NCBI GenBank assembly: GCA_021234155.1
Contig: JAJEKV010000062.1
Span: forward strand, 6,974,432-7,038,431
Direction of reading: 5' to 3'
Length of the DNA: 64,000 nt
Source of the DNA: Isoetes taiwanensis
Taxonomy: Eukaryota > Streptophyta > Lycopodiopsida > Isoetales > Isoetaceae
Shown here: one piece after another, positions 32,216-45,415 of the stretch
Layout of the letters: every line of letters begins with the position of its first letter
Numbering within the stretch: the stretch's first letter is position 1
Position numbers and translations under genes: made by a program
Notes under the pieces: generated by a model
Told to the model about the DNA's origin: nothing
Databases searched by the model: none
What the model saw: only the letters and a program-made list of their open reading frames with translations

Positions 32216-33610
32216 ATAACTGAGAAGCAAAAACATAGCCTTATGGTTCAAAGCTTCCGTCAGCAATTGGGGCACCAAGTTAAAGAAAAAGAAGAGCCAC
32301 AGTCCACGAAGTCATGCTGAGAAATTGAGGGGACTGCCCATGAGTATAGTAGACCTAGAGAAAAGCAATCAAACCATTAGAAAGGTTCACTGGAAATGTT
32401 AAAGAGGTGGTTCATGTAATATCCATTGCATTGATGCAGCGGATGACCAGATATACCACTGTTCTTTGGCCAGATATACGACATCCTGGATGGCTGTCCT
32501 ATTCTATCCGCCAAAAGATCAACTAGTATAAAAGTATAGATACCAAGTCTTCATTCTTGCACACTAACTTGCCATTCTAGTGCCTCAAAATGGACGTCTC
32601 ATCTGGATGCAGTTAGAAATGGCTTCTTATGACAACATGAGATCCTAAACTTCAAGTATAGAATGCAGTTTCTCAATTTTCTGTTGGGCAAGACATTTAA
32701 GGTTAAGGCGCCTCAACTAAACATAAACTTTACATCTCACATATAAATCCTGAGCATCATATTACCTCAGCAGAGTGCAAAACTAATCCTTCAGGGAAAA
32801 GTTCGCCATTAGAAACATAATTCATCAAAGAAAAAGATTGGCATCACATTTGACTATAGCTCGTTTATCATATTCATAGGATAGATGCGAAATAGAACAC
32901 TGCTCATCCTATCATCCAAGTCATTACAGTCAAGTTGCCAATCAGCAGCATTCAATATTCCTGCCTTTTGCCTCAATTATGGTGCAAAGATGTAAAAAAT
33001 CTGGACTCATATTTATACCAGTAAAAATCATTTTTCTAGATGATGCCACTCTGATGCAATTATATTCACATTTGACACCCTCTTTTAGTCACTTACATCC
33101 ACCACAGTGGTGAGACTAATTTTGAGGAAATTTAATCAAATGTAAAACATGTGGAAAGCTTAAAAGTCTTCTAAACCTGTGAGCTAATTCATGGTCGTTG
33201 CCTTGCCCTTCTTGCTCAAAGAATAAAATGGCCCTGAAAGAATTAATCCTTGGATGCTTGTCATATTTGGGTACAATCTTTCAAGATTTTTGTATCACGG
33301 ACAAATATCTTTTCAACCTTGGCCCATGGTTCCTATTAAAAGGCCTAAGCACAATAACAACAGTTTAAAAGAAATAAATTAAGCTAAATAAGTGAAGAAA
33401 AGCAGAATACGCCCAACTAACCTCTTCAGCTTTCCATTTAGACTATAACCTTCATCGAAATAAACCCTAAGCTTCCCATTTGAACTGCTTTTCACTGAGA
33501 AGCTGCTCCTCACGGAGAAACCTAGTTCAAGCACGAGATTAAAAAACAGCTTGAATTGATTGAAGGGGGCCGCGCGAACGCGAGCCCCCACTACCACAAA
33601 TTATGACGTG

Positions 33611-34840
33611 CACTCTCCCCTTGGGGAGATGCTAGAACGATTCACGCCCTAGTGCAATGGCGCAAACCATCCTAGGCCATCGACCTTCTGGATCATCGAT
33701 AGACCCCGCCCAGGTAAGTATGGTGCAGCGTGCCCTCTCTTTTATTTTATAATCTTCTCATGCCTTCTTCTGCAACTTATTCCTGTGGGATATCTATCCA
33801 TTCTTCTGCAACTTATTCCTGAGATCCCTCCCCGAACAACTCGGTTTCCTTCGTGAAGAATCGGAACCTGCCTCTCCACAAAACCTTCGTGCAAAAATTT
33901 TGGGCCTGCACATTGTCTTCTCTTGGGTACACATTGGTTTTCCTCCTATATTCCCTTTGCAATGATTCCTCTGAAGTTATCCTATGCTCTACCTCAGGTT
34001 TGATTCGAATTGCTACTATTCCCAGTGAAATGAAAGCCATTAGTTGAACTATAATAATCACCAATAGCCAAGCGCAAAGTCCAAAGAGAATGAAGTATGA
34101 CATCTGAAAGCATCTAGAAAGGTCGGATTCCTTGTTTTAGAATTTAACAAATGCATAAGATAGCAATGTACGAAACAATTGCATTGGTTTTAGTCTTAAT
34201 TCGGACGCGGCATTTATATCGGCATTCATATGTTTGTTTTCCTATATAATGACATTATTGTTTGTCCTTGTTGTGTACATTATATATGTTCAATATTAGA
34301 TGGACAAGGTGCCGAGCACTATGGATTGCCCCAATGCCATGGGCAATGTTCTGCTTTTCAAAGACAAGCTTTTGAAAAACGTGAACAAGTTTATGTTTTA
34401 TATGTTGCTTTAAGCATAGGATATTGAGAATTAATTGTGGTCTTTTCTAATATTGCAATCGGCCTCATATATTAAAGACAGCACCCATTATTTCTTTTGG
34501 CATCGATTCTTATAGCCATGCCAAAACATGATATAAATTGTTTTGATCTGCTCTTCTATGAGGGGTCAAGTAGTAGCACTTGGCCAATTTGTGGTGCTTA
34601 ACCGAGATAGAGAATTTTCTACAAATGTATAGCATTCCTTGTTAATGGGTGCTACATGACCCATTGATTAGCCGATTGCTATGCAAGGCCCAATTATCAC
34701 CCGCTAATGAATATACAGATCAACTTTAATGGTTATATAGAGTCTTATTATCAGCCCTCCCTTTCCTTATACATCTTCACCATTGTCATTTAGTTAACTC
34801 TTTGCTCCTCCTACTTAGGCACTCAACTAGCCACTACAAG
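33611..34840. repeat. Duplicated segment, copy A
   Basis: It starts CTCTCCCCTTGGGGAGATGC and is collinear with copy C (43510-44805) with small indels. The part from about 34360 is also shared with copy B (36871-37385). Shared words include ATAGACCCCGCCCAGGTAAG and TTGGCCAATTTGTGGTGC. No coding domain is seen. After ACTCAACTAGCC, copies A and B continue into the same PPR fragment, while C diverges. Confidence 0.8.
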
Positions 34841-34936: not shown

Positions 34937-35132
34937 ATGCCTCACGTGATAGAGAAGGATCTGATTTCATGGAATGCTATGCTTGGAGCATATGCTGAGG
35001 ACGACCAAGTACAACAAGCTCTTCAGCTTTATGAGCAAATGCCAGTCCATGATATGTCTTATTGGACAACAATGAACACATTGTATGTTGAGCAAGACAA
35101 ATTTGAAAATGATGTTATGCCCTCAGATAATG
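34937..35132 (+). pseudogene. PPR fragment, copy A, cut by an LTR
   Basis: The frame reads VIEKDLISWNAMLGAYAEDD then QALQLYEQMPVHDMSYWTTM, typical of the S and P/L motifs of plant PLS-class pentatricopeptide repeat proteins, which bind organellar RNA. It matches copy B at 37478-37690 almost word for word. The frame ends where the gypsy LTR begins at 35133, so at most two repeats survive. No start, targeting peptide or E/DYW domain is present. Confidence 0.8.
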
Positions 35133-36870: not shown

Positions 36871-37477
36871 GTGAGCCAACACAAGCTTTTGAAAAACGTG
36901 AACAAGTTTATGTTTTATATGTACCTGATAGAGCAATATTGCTTTAAGCATAGGATATTGAGAATTAATTGTGGTCTTTTCTAATATTGCACTGGCCTCA
37001 TATATTAAAGACCGGCACCCATTATTTCCTTTGGCATCGATTCTTGCTAGCCATGCCGAAACATGATATAAATTGTTTCGGATCTGTCTTCTATGAGGGG
37101 TCAAGTAGTAGCACTTGGCCAATTTGTGGTGCTTAACCGAGATAGAGAATTTTCTACAAATGTATAGCATTCCCAGTGTTACCGGGTGTTACATGACCCA
37201 TTGATTAGCCAGATTGCTATGCAAGGCCCAATTATCACCCGTTAATGAATATACAGGGTCCCAGTATCAACTTTAATGGTTATATAGAGTCTTATTATCA
37301 GCCACTCCCTTTCCTTATACATCTTCACCATTGTCATTTAGTTAACTCTTTGCTCCTCCTACTTAGGCACTCAACTAGCCACTACAAGAAAAAGGTACCT
37401 ATAGTGTCTAAAGTAACATCAATATTTTTGACAATGATGTGCTAAACATGGACAATTTTAGGAACCTACTCTAGTAT
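36871..37477. repeat. Duplicated segment, copy B (partial)
   Basis: From CACAAGCTTTTGAAAAACG onward it is nearly identical to 34357-34925 of copy A and 44296-44803 of copy C. The left part of the segment is absent. It leads directly into PPR copy B. Confidence 0.8.
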
Positions 37478-37975
37478 TTGAGGAAATGCCTCGTCGTGAT
37501 AGAGAAGGATCTGATTTCATGGAATGCTATGCTTGGAGCATATGTTAAGGAGGACCAAGTACGACAAGCTCTTCAGCTTTATGAGCAAATGCCAGTCCAT
37601 GATATGTCTTATTGGACAACAATGAACACATTGTATGTTGAGCAGGACAGCTTGAGAATGATGTTAAGTGCCCGTATGCAATGTATGCAATATGTTGTCT
37701 CATGGAATGCAATGATTGCAGCATATGCCAAGAAGGAAAAGCTTGAGGAGGCGCTTCAACTTTTCAGCACATATCGCAAAGAGATCTGGTATTATGGTCG
37801 ATTATAATTATGCATATGCCCAGCATGGCTTTGGAAAAGATGCAATTTATTTTTTTGCGCAAATGCAATAGGCCACTGTGATGCCTAATGAGCTTACGTA
37901 CTCTAGTGTCCTTTCTGCATATAGTCGTGATGGGCTCCTTGATGAGGATTGTATTTATTTTCTCATTCTGTTGTG
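37478..37975 (+). pseudogene. PPR (PLS-class) pseudogene, copy B
   Basis: The main frame reads IEKDLISWNAMLGAYVKEDQ, ALQLYEQMPVHDMSYWTTM and YVVSWNAMIAAYAKKEKLEE, three to four consecutive PPR motifs of the PLS class found in organellar RNA-editing and processing factors. A frameshift near 37800 moves to YAYAQHGFGKDAIYFFAQMQ with a TAG stop, then PNELTYSSVLSAYSRDGLLD. No ATG-proximal transit peptide and no E, E+ or DYW domain are seen. Expected length is several hundred residues, so this is a broken fragment. Confidence 0.85.
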
Positions 37976-38311: not shown

Positions 38312-38780
38312 ATGCACTACGATGATGTACAAAGATTAAAACAAAATGTCGAAATCCCTTCGGATGCACCATGTAATCTACCAAAGAATTCATCTAACTT
38401 GACCATTATGGCATTGATCTTTTTGTTGCATTTTTGGTGTGCTTGGAATTCGGGATGTTGCATTTGCTATGTAGATCGTTGCATAATGACAAAGCCAAGA
38501 GGAGGACTATAAGACAGAAAGTAGTATCAGACTTGCTGCCAATATTTGAGTTGAAAGATGAAGAATCTGGAAAGGAAGGTTTAGAATGTGCAATTTGCGT
38601 GAGAGAATTTAAAGCAAGGGAATAGGGCAAGATTTTGCCAAACTGTAACCCTAGGTTCCACATCCAATGCATTGATGTTTGGTTTGAGTCTCATGTTACT
38701 TGCTCTTTGTGCCATTGCAAAGGTTCAATAGATAAGTCAAGGCAAAAACCTCTCAATTTTGACACTTGCAACTTTGGCGA
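38312..38780 (+). pseudogene. ATL-type RING-H2 E3 ligase pseudogene
   Basis: A hydrophobic stretch (MALIFLLHFWCAW) is followed, in a shifted frame, by VVSDLLPIFELKDEESGKEG and a RING-H2 finger: LECAICVREF, then PNCNPRFHIQCIDVWFESH and CSLCHCK. ATL ligases have this transmembrane-GLD-RING-H2 order and act in ubiquitination at membranes. The copy is dead: a TAG stop follows FKARE inside the finger, the first zinc-binding His (CxHxFH) is Pro, and the membrane part is out of frame. Intron absence is normal for ATL genes and does not prove retroposition. Confidence 0.8.
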
Positions 38781-39104: not shown

Positions 39105-39670
39105 CTCCAGAAGATGTTCTGGATTGCATACGACAGCCCGCTGTAAACTCCATAGGACTTTCTCTCTCCAATAGATATGCCGACAAATGGGCCATTTGTC
39201 TGACTCGTACTTATGATGGCCATAGAAAACAGAGGTGTCATCTCGTCCCTTCCTCTATAGGCTCCTACAAACAACGAAAGCAATATAGTATTAGCATCAA
39301 AGATAACATAACAATAGCATGATGTGTTACCCATGAGGTGCCACCCATCCAGCCATCATCACATTGGTGAATAACAACATGTTAACTAATATATAGCAAG
39401 GCATAGAACAATGGTTGGAATTGACCACTCCATCAGCCCTCCTTGTGTGTATTGTGTAAATAGGTTGAAGAGCATCGGGCTTGTCCAGTATACATCATGC
39501 TAATAACAGGCGACTGCAGGAAAATGCTTGCTCGTTCGTCAACCCGACTTAGATCCGCCAACGCACTAGGAATTATTGGACTTACACTGTCTACATAATG
39601 GTAGATTATTGAGCCTAGCACGTTAAGAGATCCCCCTCCCCCCTCCCCTGAGGGAAACTCTATACACAAA
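39105..39670. repeat. Duplicated segment D, matches 44855-45415
   Basis: GATGTTCTGGATTGCATACG, GCTGTAAACTCCATAGGACT and TTACCCATGAGGTGCCACCC occur in the same order in both places with small indels. No coding domain recognised. Confidence 0.8.
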
Positions 39671-40554: not shown

Positions 40555-40823
40555 ACCGTAGAGCAGTACATACTCTATAAAAAATTCTAAGCAAAACGTA
40601 ACAACAAGATAATGAAACATCTATGCAACAAACATGCCCATCATAACGAGCATCTAGCCTAGATTACCAATATCATATGATTATGAACATCCCATTATAC
40701 TTGGTTATAAGCAAAAAGCAAGTTTATAGCTTGTATTGTCATTACAGGATAATACCAAAAAACTCTATTACATACTCTATACAAAACTCTAAACAAATGG
40801 CAACAACAAGATAATGAAACATC

Positions 40824-40898
40824 TGTTGGAATAAGCAAGAGGTCCTGGATTCGATCCCCAGCCTGTCCACCCAATCATAGAATGCTCATTTCTCAACA
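40824..40898 (+). mobile_element. 5' LTR of short copia (internally deleted)
   Basis: It keeps the first 9-10 bases and the last 65 or so of the 177-bp 3' LTR, including the 3' half of the tRNA-like sequence (GCAAGAGGTCC to CAGCCTGTCCACCC). About 100 bp was lost after insertion. Confidence 0.85.
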
Positions 40899-40918
40899 AA
40901 TGTATCAGAGCAAGCATT

Positions 40919-42661
40919 ACGGCAACCCGCTTTGGAGCATCATTACTGAATGCTGTTGAGGTCTATAATGGTGGATCTGGCTTTCAAGTGTGGAAAGCCA
41001 AGATCAAGAGGGTATTAAAATCGGAAGGACTTTGGGATATTGTGAAGCCGCCAAAGGGTGCAGATAAGCTGCAAGAGGCGATGGCGAGGCTTGAAGAACT
41101 GAAATTAAGTGACGCGGGAATCAAGAAAGAGAAGAGTAAGGCGAAAGGCAAGGCTGGAACGTCTGACACGGAAGGAGTTACTTCAGCCAAAGTTAACGAA
41201 GCTAAAGGTATCATTTGTAGCAAAGTAGGCTCTAGTATTTTGCTGAAGTTGCAAGGATTGTCTCCGAAAGATATGTGGTTATATCTTTTAAAAAATTATG
41301 AAGGTAAATCCTCATCACAGATTGATGTTCTGGAAAAGGAACTAAGATGTCTTAAGTATCATGAAGGTGATAATCTAGAAGTTTTTTTTCAAAACTTGGA
41401 TATGATAGTATTTGATTTGAAAGCTGCTGGTGCTGTTCTTTCAAAAGAAGCTGAATTATTAGCTGTCTCAAGAGCATTCTCTGCTTATGAGCAAATTGCA
41501 ATTCTTGTGAGAAATGTAGCAAAGAGTCGTGAAGAGGCCGAAAGAATTGTTCGTATAGAAATCGAACAGAGAAAAGTTGTAAAGGATGAAGATGAAGGGG
41601 CTGAAATCCTATATGCTGCTGGTCGATCTCGAGGTCGAGGTAAGGAAGGTAAGATTGGTCCATGTTTTGTTTGCAATGAATATGGTCATGTAAAAGCTAA
41701 TTGCCCGAGTCTAGCAAAAGAGATATTTTGTTATAATTGCGGTGGGAGAGGGCATATCTCTTCTAAGTGTTCTAGTCCAAAGAATAGAGGGAGAAGAGGA
41801 GGACGTGCACGTGGGGCTATCAGAGGAAGAGGTCAATATAAATCCAGTGCTGTGAATATGGCTGTTGAAGCAAATAAAGAAGAAGAAGATGCTGAGGTAA
41901 TTCACAAATCTTTTCTTGCTATTAAACGCAACACACGTGCTAACTCTCTTGTAATAGATAGTGGAGCTGAGCGATCCGTAGTCAGCTCTTCAGAAATGCT
42001 TACAGGGTGCTCAAGTATGGGAACGAGACACATACAATTGGGCAATGGATGTCTGCAACAAGTTGAAGGAGTGGGTTTGCTGGAGCTATTTGATCTTAAT
42101 GGAAAACCTGTAAGCCTAAAAGATGTCTTGTGTGTGCCAAATTTAATCCGGAATTTAATCTCGGTTAGTCAGCTAGTAGATCTTGGATATAAAGTGGTGT
42201 TTGACAAGAAAGTTTGTGAAATATTGCGTAATAATAAAGTTGTGTTTCTAGCAAAAAGAAATGGTGATTTGTTTGAATTGAACAAGGATGAGGTAGTTAG
42301 TATGAATGCAGTAATACTTCCATCTGTTGAGTTGTGGCATGAAAGGTTGGCTCATACACATATCAAGAATGTTCAATTTATGGCTAAAAAAGGGTTAATA
42401 GATTGTTCAGCAGAGAAAAGTCAATTTATTTGTCATGGATGTATGCTAGAAAAGCATACAAGAATTCCCTTTAAAAAAAGTAGTAAGCGTGCAAATGATT
42501 TGCTTGAATTAGTGCACACGGATCTTTGTGGACCTATGAATATAAGAAGTGCAAGTGGAAAGAGATATTATATTTCATTTATTGATGATTACAGTAGAAG
42601 GGCCGAGGAGGGGAGCATGTGGATTGTGGTGAAGGCTGGAATGGATTGGTGTGCCCATTAA
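40919..42661 (+). CDS. Gag-protease-partial integrase polyprotein (copia)
   Basis: One 580-codon frame is open without interruption. By comparison with the second copia element it should start at 40919, where ATG has become ACG (context SI-T-ATRFGASLLN against SI-M-SSRFGASLLN). A downstream non-ATG start at 40988 or readthrough would be alternatives. Order: UBN2-type gag; two CCHC zinc knuckles at about residues 249-262 (CFVCNEYGHVKANC) and 271-284 (CYNCGGRGHISSKC); protease active site DSGA with Asp near 347; the integrase zinc region (LWHERLAH, CHGC); HTDLCGP with the first catalytic Asp near 535; FIDDYSR near 556. It then jumps to an unrelated 20-residue tail and stops 7 bases before the LTR. 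Confidence 0.85.
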   Translation, partial: TATRFGASLLNAVEVYNGGSGFQVWKAKIKRVLKSEGLWDIVKPPKGADKLQEAMARLEELKLSDAGIKKEKSKAKGKAGTSDTEGVTSAKVNEAKGIICSKVGSSILLKLQGLSPKDMWLYLLKNYEGKSSSQIDVLEKELRCLKYHEGDNLEVFFQNLDMIVFDLKAAGAVLSKEAELLAVSRAFSAYEQIAILVRNVAKSREEAERIVRIEIEQRKVVKDEDEGAEILYAAGRSRGRGKEGKIGPCFVCNEYGHVKANCPSLAKEIFCYNCGGRGHISSKCSSPKNRGRRGGRARGAIRGRGQYKSSAVNMAVEANKEEEDAEVIHKSFLAIKRNTRANSLVIDSGAERSVVSSSEMLTGCSSMGTRHIQLGNGCLQQVEGVGLLELFDLNGKPVSLKDVLCVPNLIRNLISVSQLVDLGYKVVFDKKVCEILRNNKVVFLAKRNGDLFELNKDEVVSMNAVILPSVELWHERLAHTHIKNVQFMAKKGLIDCSAEKSQFICHGCMLEKHTRIPFKKSSKRANDLLELVHTDLCGPMNIRSASGKRYYISFIDDYSRRAEEGSMWIVVKAGMDWCAH

Positions 42662-42668
42662 GGGGGGA
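42658..42668 (+). other. Polypurine tract of short copia
   Basis: TTAAGGGGGGA directly precedes the LTR start TGTTGG. It overlaps the stop codon of the polyprotein. Confidence 0.85.
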
Positions 42669-42845
42669 TGTTGGAATGTTGGAGTATGTGTAATGGGCAC
42701 ACATGAAGAATGATTCAGTGGAGGAGTGCCGAAAGCCCATCAAAGGGCCGGTAGCTCAGTGGTAGAGTACTTGGCTTGCAAGCAAGAGGTCCTGGGTTCG
42801 ATCCCCAGCCTGTCCACCCAATCAGAGAAAGCCCATTTCTCAACA
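42669..42845 (+). mobile_element. 3' LTR of short copia, 177 bp
   Basis: It starts TGTTGGAATG and ends TTTCTCAACA, followed by the target duplication ACATC. At 177 bp it is short for copia. A tRNA-like sequence fills 72 bp of it (42745-42816). Confidence 0.92.
42745..42816 (+). tRNA. tRNA-Ala(UGC)-like sequence inside copia LTR
   Basis: The 72 nt fold as a full cloverleaf: acceptor GGGCCGG/CCTGTCC (six of seven pairs, C5-U68 mismatched), D arm GCTC/GAGT with GG in the loop, anticodon arm CTTGG/GCAAG (G31-G39 mismatch) with loop CTTGCAA giving anticodon UGC, five-base variable loop, T arm CTGGG/CCCAG with loop TTCGATC. G3:U70, the alanine identity pair, and discriminator A73 are present. CCC follows, one base from CCA. 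A box TAGCTCAGTGGTAGAG and B box GGTTCGATCCC are intact. The 5' LTR carries the 3' half, so it belongs to the LTR. Whether it is transcribed or charged is unknown. Confidence 0.8.
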
Positions 42846-42999
42846 ACATCTATCCAACAAACATGCCCATCATAATGAGCATCTAGCCTATACCAAGATC
42901 ATATGATTATGAACATCCCATTATACTTGGTTATAAGCAAAAAGCAAGTTCATAACTTGTATTGTCATTACAGGATAATACCAAACAACTCTATTCCAA

Positions 43000-43509: not shown

Positions 43510-44805
43510 CTCTCCCCTTGGGGAGATGCTAGAATGATTCACGCCCTAGTGCAATGGCGCAAACCATCCTAGGCCATTGACCTTCTGGATCATCGATAGA
43601 CCCCGCCCAGGTAAGTATGGTGCAGTGTGCCCTCTCTTTTATTTTATAATCTTCTCATGCCTTCTTCTGCAACTTATTCCTCAGATCCCAACTCATTGAA
43701 TTCGGTTTCCTTCGTGAAGAATCGGATGCCTCTCCACAAAACAGGAAATCTAATTCTAAAACGTGCAAAAATTTTGGGCCTGCGAATGTCCATAAAGACC
43801 TGTTATTCCACTAGCCCTGGGGAAATACATACAGGCCCCCAATTCATCCATTGGTTTTCCTCCTATATTCCTTTGCAACGATTCCTCTGAAGTTAGCCTA
43901 TGCTCGGCCTATCTCATCTAATACAGGTTTGGATTCGAATTGCTACCATTCCAGTGAAATGAAAGCCATTAGTTGAACCATAATAATCACCATAGCCAAG
44001 CGCACTTCAAAGAGAATGAAGTATGACATCCGAGCATCTAGAAAGGCCGGATTCCTTACTTTAGAATTTAAGCATTTACCAAATGCATAAGATAGCAAGA
44101 TACGAAAAAATTGCATTGGTTTTAGTCTAATTCGACGCGGCATTCATATGTTTGTTTTCCTATATACTGGACATTATTGCCTAGTTCAATGTTGTCCTTA
44201 TTGTGTACATAACATATGTTCAATCTTAGATGGACAAGGTGCCAGAGCACTATGGATTGCCCCAAATACAATGGGCAATGTTCTGTTTTCAGCACAAGCT
44301 TTTGAAAAACACGAACAAGTTTATGTTTTATATGTACCTGATAGAGCAATATTGCTTTAAGCAGAGGATGTTGAGAATTAATTGTAATCTTTTCTAATAT
44401 TGCACTAGCCTCATATATTAAAGACCAGCAAAATTCAAGGAATCCATTATTTGTTTTGGCATCAGTTCTTGCTAGCCATGCCGAAACATGATATAAATTG
44501 TTTCGGATCTTTCTATGAGGGGTCAAGTAGTAGCACTTGGCCAATTTGTGGTGCTTAACTGAGATAGAGAATTTCCTACAAATGTATAGCATTTCCAGTG
44601 TTACTGGGTGTTACATAACCCATAGATTAGCCAGATTGCTATGCAAGGCCCAATTATCACCCGTTAATGAATATACAGGGTCCCAGTATCAACTTTAATG
44701 GTTATATAGAGTCTTATTATCAGCCACTCCCTTTCCTTATACATCTTCACCATTGTCATTTAGTTAACTCTTTGCTCCTCCTGCTTAGGCACTCAACTAG
44801 CCTAC
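43510..44805. repeat. Duplicated segment, copy C
   Basis: It is collinear with copy A (33611-34840), beginning CTCTCCCCTTGGGGAGATGC, and with several insertions relative to A (for example near 43740-43840). It diverges from A and B after ACTCAACTAGCC, just before their PPR fragment. Confidence 0.8.
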
Positions 44806-44854: not shown

Positions 44855-45415
44855 TGTGATGTTCTGGATTGCATACGGCAGCTCGCTGTAAACTCCATAG
44901 GACTTTCTCCCTCCAATAGGTATGTCGATAAATGGGCCCTCCGTCCGACTCATACCTAGGGTGGCCAGGGGAAACAAAGGTGTCGTCTCATCCCCTTCGC
45001 TATAGGCTCCTATAAACAACAAAAGCAATATACTATTAGCATCAAAGATAACATACCAATAGCATGATGTGTTACCCATGAGGTGCCACCCATCCAGCCA
45101 TCAACACATTGGTGAATAACAACATGCTAACTAATATATAGCAAGGCATTGGCTGGCATAGAATAATGGTTGGAATTGACCACTCCATTAGCCCCTCCTT
45201 GTGTGTATTGTGTAAATAGGTTGAAGAGCATCGGGCTTGTCCACTATACATCATGCTAATAACAGGCAGCTGCAGGAAAATGCTTGCTCGTTCGTCATAC
45301 CCGACTTAGACCCGCCAACGCATGAATCACCTAGGAATTGTTGGACTTACACTCTGCCTACATAATGGTATATTATTGAGCCTAGCACGTTAAGATATTA
45401 AGCACGTTTGAAATA
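44855..45415. repeat. Duplicated segment, matches 39105-39640
   Basis: Same ordered words as at 39105-39640 with small indels. Copies C and D-like segments are adjacent here but separated by PPR and RING pseudogenes in the 33.6-39.7 kb region, which points to a larger duplication with later loss. Confidence 0.75.

Follow-up and report, generated by a model that had tools for sequence, protein, structure and literature searches.

The Isoetes taiwanensis genome holds an LTR in which a sequence resembling a whole tRNA is embedded, and this LTR closes an element that encodes Copia proteins. To which kind of element does such an LTR belong, and how did it come to stand next to a Copia coding region? 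The first-pass annotation had read it as the LTR of a Copia element and as a case not described so far. Here we analyzed the LTR within its window (the whole 64-kb stretch of DNA under study, located in contig C1070) and searched the genome for it, covering 1,658,258,908 bases in 1110 contigs. The tRNA-LTR belongs to a 547-bp, non-coding, multi-copy TRIM of the Helenus type, and the element in the window is one of several loci in which this TRIM is fused to Copia parts.

The LTR occupies 42669..42845 (plus strand, as do all features of the element given below) with exact boundaries, 177 bp reading TGTTGG...CAACA, as had been proposed, and by genome search and LTR pairing it is the 3′ LTR of a Helenus-like TRIM family. 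The only tRNA of the window was detected in it by ARAGORN, a tRNA-Ala(TGC) at 42745-42818, and the Rfam tRNA model matches 42745-42816 with 62.3 bits (E 4.2e-11 for the whole window). The 72-nt tRNA-Ala(UGC)-like sequence at 42745..42816, which was also checked for its stem pairs, is thereby confirmed. By the usual consensus, we take TAGCTCAGTGG at 42752..42762 for the A box and GGTTCGATCCC at 42795..42805 for the B box. The alanine features pointed out earlier, a G:U third acceptor pair and an A as final base, are both present. The description as a full cloverleaf holds for the tRNA models, and 19 of the 21 stem pairs are standard (the exceptions are C5:U67 and G30:G38), but the minimum-energy fold is a different one (-20.5 against -18.7 kcal/mol for the cloverleaf) and the sequence folds no better than shuffled sequences (z +1.2), so the case for the cloverleaf rests on the tRNA models and not on thermodynamics.

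Most copies of the LTR keep this sequence, since ARAGORN reports a tRNA in 35 of 38 near-full LTRs. The Rfam scan, done on 19 loci out of 70, gave 33 tRNA matches above threshold with 32.8-62.3 bits; in these 19 loci some LTR copies have no tRNA match and others go down to 33-47 bits. A recent copy of an ordinary tRNA-Ala gene was considered as the source and rejected, the LTR tRNA differing by eye from the plant-type tRNA-Ala query. The start of the ordinary plant tRNA-Ala (33 nt, up to 3 mismatches) occurs at 201 places in the genome. Many closely spaced tRNA-Ala-like starts were also seen in C66, C232 and C926, where they represent arrays of tRNA-Ala genes or a repeat containing them.

Searching the genome with the LTR gave at least 41 matches (best 40 of 504 candidate places scored), many of which form pairs 370 bp apart and so delimit the 547-bp TRIM. 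Between the LTRs lies an internal part of 193 bp with the PBS TGGTATCAGAGCC, which we take to be of the usual initiator tRNA-Met (iMet) type, and the PPT ATTAAGGGGGAA, and the insertions are flanked by 5-bp TSDs. A 50-nt pattern of the tRNA was found at 222 genomic places with up to 3 mismatches, and the reversed control at none. The search for LTR pairs with TSDs, which the first-pass annotation had suggested, covered 25 pairs in the loci examined, 17 of them with exact 5-bp TSDs and 7 with identical LTRs; among the 8 pairs lacking an exact TSD, 4 sit in three-LTR arrays at C1077 and C944. Half of the ten distinct single-LTR loci are solo LTRs with a TSD, within the sequence stretch retrieved. 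The tandem array at C944:1669900-1670880 has three LTRs and matching outer flanks (CCGCT) and is perhaps the product of a TRIM-TRIM switch.

The supposed novelty of a tRNA in an LTR did not survive the literature search, as tRNA-bearing TRIM LTRs have already been published as Helenus (TRIMp3). In the accessible parts of that work (Kojima 2024, PMC10886601), Helenus comprises TRIMs with tRNA-derived LTRs, with one plant family, in Selaginella; the author's first screen was restricted to elements below 1000 bp, conservation is described at the boxes, helpers sharing long stretches of the LTR are thought unlikely, and fungal Helenus families are linked to Copia. Helenus as described there and the Isoetes TRIM have in common a length of at most about 1 kb, tRNA-derived A and B boxes in the LTR, PBS, PPT and, in plants, 5-bp TSDs. 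In the Isoetes family, which is non-coding and shorter than about 1 kb, the LTR contains both boxes, the two LTRs enclose a PBS and a PPT, and the TSD is 5 bp long; the window copy, a 2.0-kb coding chimera, falls outside this description. By these described features the Isoetes TRIM fits Helenus. It differs from Helenus, as far as the available portion of that account goes, in its nearly complete tRNA-Ala(UGC) cloverleaf and in the presence of coding chimeras; the available text of PMC10886601 has no mention of template switching or chimeras. As far as the literature searched shows, Isoetes is the second plant and the second lycophyte genus with Helenus. The open-access literature searched gave no report of Helenus and Copia chimeras or of Helenus in Isoetes.

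The likeness to Cassandra, the TRIM with a 5S rRNA sequence, was upheld: both have a small RNA gene in the LTR and form tandem arrays, going by the accessible parts of PMC10886601 and PMC7215508. Unlike Cassandra in these accounts, the Isoetes TRIM carries a tRNA in place of the 5S sequence and no terminator was seen in it.

The element of the window has TRIM ends and a Copia body. It is flanked on both sides by ACATC, the left TSD copy being at 40819..40823 and the right one, recognized by flank comparison, at 42846..42850, and the adjoining host repeat unit in the window contains the insertion-free site (near 40612). Alignment of the LTRs places the 5′ LTR at 40824..40898; it is of the tRNA type with an internal deletion of 102 bases, and its 75 bp are 93.9% identical to the 3′ LTR over 66 bp. 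Only the first 9 and the last 66 bases having been retained, it has the B box without the A box. Hence the tRNA is a part of the LTR which was copied with it, as had been stated. A decayed PBS and the beginning of a Copia leader follow at 40901..40911, resembling the leader of the Copia copy in C1055. Pfam identifies Copia gag with zinc knuckle, Pol_BBD and a part of GAG-pre-integrase at 40961..42601, truncated in pol, and an open frame extends over 40835-42661. The Copia pol is joined, near the start of the integrase part, to the 3′ part of the TRIM internal region at 42603..42668 (PPT at 42660-42668), of which 42603-42666 is identical to the TRIM at 64 of 64 positions. Since the last 66 internal bases are those of the TRIM, the window copy is a recombinant of Copia and TRIM with TRIM LTRs.

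Side features of the window include a full-length match to U1 spliceosomal RNA at 33563-33721 (minus strand, 134.6 bits) and local segmental duplications around the element with 90-98% identity (36877-37380 with 44290-44802, and 39113-39541 with 44858-45297). By eye, a remnant resembling a RING-H2 finger gene with an internal stop was seen at 38580-38720, and PPR-like remnants near 35000-35100 and 37480-37780.

The gag/pol region of the window element has at least 80 matches in the genome (best 79 of 16135 candidates scored); among the matches listed, about 27 places are 68-94% identical to it and 4 of these have open frames of 1400-1439 aa. The six closest Copia relatives among these matches showed no match to the tRNA-LTR in the stretch of about 600 bp upstream, from gag to the PBS. 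All six differ from the window element upstream of gag, so the tRNA-LTR is not that of the window's Copia family, and a Copia family possessing its own tRNA-LTR was rejected as a candidate. The first-pass annotation had also considered that other family members might lack the tRNA; this is the case for the window's Copia family and not inside the TRIM family.

Fusions of the TRIM with Copia sequence were found at nine loci (the window, C963, C1051, C1081, C976, C1038, C907, C918 and C1045), and at least three Copia lineages take part in them; the count leaves out C109, C1000, C1034 and C1046. The clearest order is found at C963:10554-15763, where a tRNA-LTR is followed by Copia gag-pol, a PPT, 269 bp of another LTR, the whole TRIM internal region and a second tRNA-LTR. 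Its outer tRNA-LTRs are 99.4% identical, the TSD is GAATT and the Copia body shows frame decay; the locus is duplicated in C109, flanks included. The inner LTR sequence occurs at 15 places in the genome, including pairs 4-5 kb apart, and the 5′ LTR of this family in C1059 is followed by the same leader (98.6% over 73 bp) and has about 160 more bases before the PBS, which indicates a truncated inner LTR in C963. Thus C963 has the inner LTR, the near-identical outer LTRs and the single TSD of a template-switching complex, with an inner LTR shorter than its relative's. The junction of C963 recurs in diverged form at C1051:6933200-6933559 (82% alike over the LTR, then the TRIM leader), so the fusion itself has probably gone through further rounds of copying. 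Compared with C963, the window copy, which lacks an inner LTR, is a simpler recombinant.

The order of C963 was found again at C1081:234381-244851, with other DNA in the middle (by eye) and ends 10.5 kb apart; the TSD is GCGCA/GTGCA (4 of 5 matching) and the outer LTRs are 98.3% identical, and we infer that this is a single element. The inner LTR of C1081 is a member of a large family, in which pairs lie about 4.8 kb from each other (best 40 of 678 candidates scored). The 5′ LTR of this family in C1061 is 64 bases longer and is followed by the leader which stands behind the 5′ tRNA-LTR of C1081; the inner-LTR family is therefore the Copia parent, and the inner LTR of C1081 is also cut short. 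At C976 a Copia RT meets the TRIM leader at TGGTATC. C1038 has an LTR of the Copia family of C1081, complete to the PBS, then the start of the TRIM internal region, a tRNA-LTR and Copia gag, and the order at C907 is tRNA-LTR, PBS and Copia gag. At C918 and C1045 an LTR of the kind of the window's Copia, complete to the PBS, precedes the TRIM leader. As these two loci are 92% alike, and C963 and C1051 share their junction, the chimeras are not all independent and each pair possibly goes back to one event. A further locus, C1034 (L035 7357-8230), has about 22 TRIM bases and the 3′ LTR joined to an open frame with no Pfam match and is possibly a fusion with another kind of element.

There are 74 exact TRIM leaders. 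A tRNA-LTR, recognized from 11 bases in most cases, stands before 68 of them, and the other 6 have different sequence in front at the PBS (C918, C963, C976, C1000, C1038 and C1045). The pattern of LTR end plus PBS gave 169 matches with at most 1 mismatch, 78 of which were exact; a TRIM-like leader follows in 70 of the 78 and another leader in 8. Four of the 8 were examined, and C907, C1038 and C1046 (position 2696578) lie behind a tRNA-LTR and C916 does not. LTR ends and PBS with the leader TGTAGG (4 places) were set aside, the one examined, C916, having no tRNA-LTR.

We consider it very probable that these loci reflect a TRIM promoted by Pol III and mobilized in Copia particles, where the template is switched mostly at the PBS of the TRIM. 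The tRNA part would serve as an internal Pol III promoter, as suggested by its boxes and by the parallel with Cassandra, and the TRIM RNA would be packaged, primed with initiator tRNA-Met and integrated by Copia proteins. Only the PBS and the LTR ends TGTT...AACA are clearly common to the TRIM and the Copia elements. For C963 and C1081, first-strand synthesis may have copied the TRIM from its 3′ LTR back to the PBS, where the template ends, and then continued on a co-packaged Copia RNA, entering its LTR short of the end, as a switch to the 3′ end of the Copia RNA would predict. The Copia would then be copied to its own PBS, and the second strand would bring the TRIM LTR to the opposite end by pairing at the PBS, giving a Copia body between TRIM LTRs. 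Ahead of the PBS, about 160 and 64 bases present in relatives are missing from the inner LTRs of C963 and C1081, so neither of these two switches took place at the PBS of the Copia itself; the joins are at that PBS in C918, C1045 and C1038, at a chance TGGTATC in RT in C976 and in pol in the window. The window element would be the same kind of product, with the switch in pol instead of the PBS and with later decay.

The TRIM has no TTTT terminator, a lack shared by 37% of base-shuffled sequences. No additional constraint on the tRNA part could be detected: the conservation comparison gave 1.9% for it against 2.8 and 3.7% elsewhere in 70 copies partly picked by tRNA match (30 loci by exact match, which favours the tRNA), 5.4% against 5.8 and 5.0% in the 19 most divergent copies, and 3.7% for the A-box stretch. 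This test is weak because the TRIM family is young.

A Copia family with an LTR of its own built around a tRNA gene would explain why the window element encodes gag and has the tRNA, whole or partial, in both LTRs, but it is hardly credible, since the sequence before gag is unrelated in all six of the close relatives that were examined, the tRNA-LTR copies examined are mostly TRIMs, and the Copia bodies behind tRNA-LTRs differ strongly (36-37% protein identity between the window and L031 or L032), yet their LTRs are 94-97% identical to the window's. It is also very improbable that the TRIM arose by internal deletion of a coding tRNA-LTR Copia with the long elements as ancestors, which is the scenario of Gao et al. 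for rice. The long elements do carry the LTR and a part or all of the internal region of the TRIM, but they carry several unrelated bodies, and in C963 and C1081 a large part of an unrelated Copia LTR stands directly before the complete TRIM internal region, which deletion leaves unexplained. Recombination at the DNA level between neighbouring insertions could draw on the tandem and damaged copies of the genome and would suit the incomplete inner LTRs of C963 and C1081; the single TSD around the whole of C963, its 99.4% identical outer LTRs and the recurrence of joins at the PBS of the TRIM make it improbable.

That the LTR tRNA is a working host tRNA gene, or the primer of reverse transcription as the first-pass annotation had suggested, deserves almost no credence. 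Such a role would agree with its score of 62.3 bits, its anticodon UGC, the G:U at the third acceptor pair and the A at the end, but there are two stem mismatches, some LTR copies score only 33-47 bits, and the start of an ordinary tRNA-Ala (33 nt) is matched at 201 genomic places with up to 3 mismatches. A priming role is unsupported, the PBS TGGTATCAGAGCC being presumably of the usual iMet type.

Beyond the preferred reading of Pol III-promoted TRIMs switching template in Copia particles, a wider proposal seems to us evenly poised between right and wrong. By this proposal, TRIM RNA made by Pol III enters the particles of several unrelated Copia lineages, with which it shares little beyond the PBS and the LTR ends, the PBS of the TRIM is the usual switch point to Copia RNA, the tRNA-LTR would thereby be handed to coding Copia bodies, and some of the fusions would be copied onwards.

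Complexes formed by template switching are known from Sabot and Schulman 2007 (PMC1950507), and like the Isoetes chimeras they contain a third LTR on the inside, have two internal regions between outer LTRs that are nearly identical, and are flanked by one 5-bp TSD. Those complexes join related elements and are explained by an R-R jump, whereas in Isoetes the TRIM is joined to unrelated Copia at its PBS and the inner LTR is shortened in two loci. In rice, OsajLTRA10 is a long Copia with the LTR and part of the internal region of the TRIM OsajRetroS10 and has a duplicated 25-bp stretch ending in TGGTATCAGAGCC, according to the accessible parts of Gao et al. 2016 (PMC4717578), where it is taken for the progenitor of the TRIM; it could instead be a chimera like those of Isoetes. 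For wheat, the available text of PMC9744471 lists the PBS and the LTR ends among the features expected to be common to partners, and it mentions that partners may be changed by template switching.

The finding is a Helenus-type TRIM new for Isoetes together with an instructive set of Copia fusions, and the earlier claim that the LTR represents a new type for Copia was not borne out. With 222 tRNA-like matches in Isoetes taiwanensis the family may inflate counts of tRNA genes; for the related I. sinensis 8,975 annotated tRNA genes are given in the accessible part of PMC10541799, and this number may be linked to the TRIM family. A longer relative is given for just 11 of 289 TRIM subfamilies in the accessible parts of Gao et al. 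(PMC4717578), and for Cassandra no mobilizing element is indicated by Kojima in the portion available (PMC10886601). Joints made during reverse transcription point directly to the helpers and can be searched in any genome. If the proposed reading is true, the helpers of TRIMs in general would become visible through chimeric joints, and 'autonomous partners' described in the literature, e.g. that of rice, may be chimeras.
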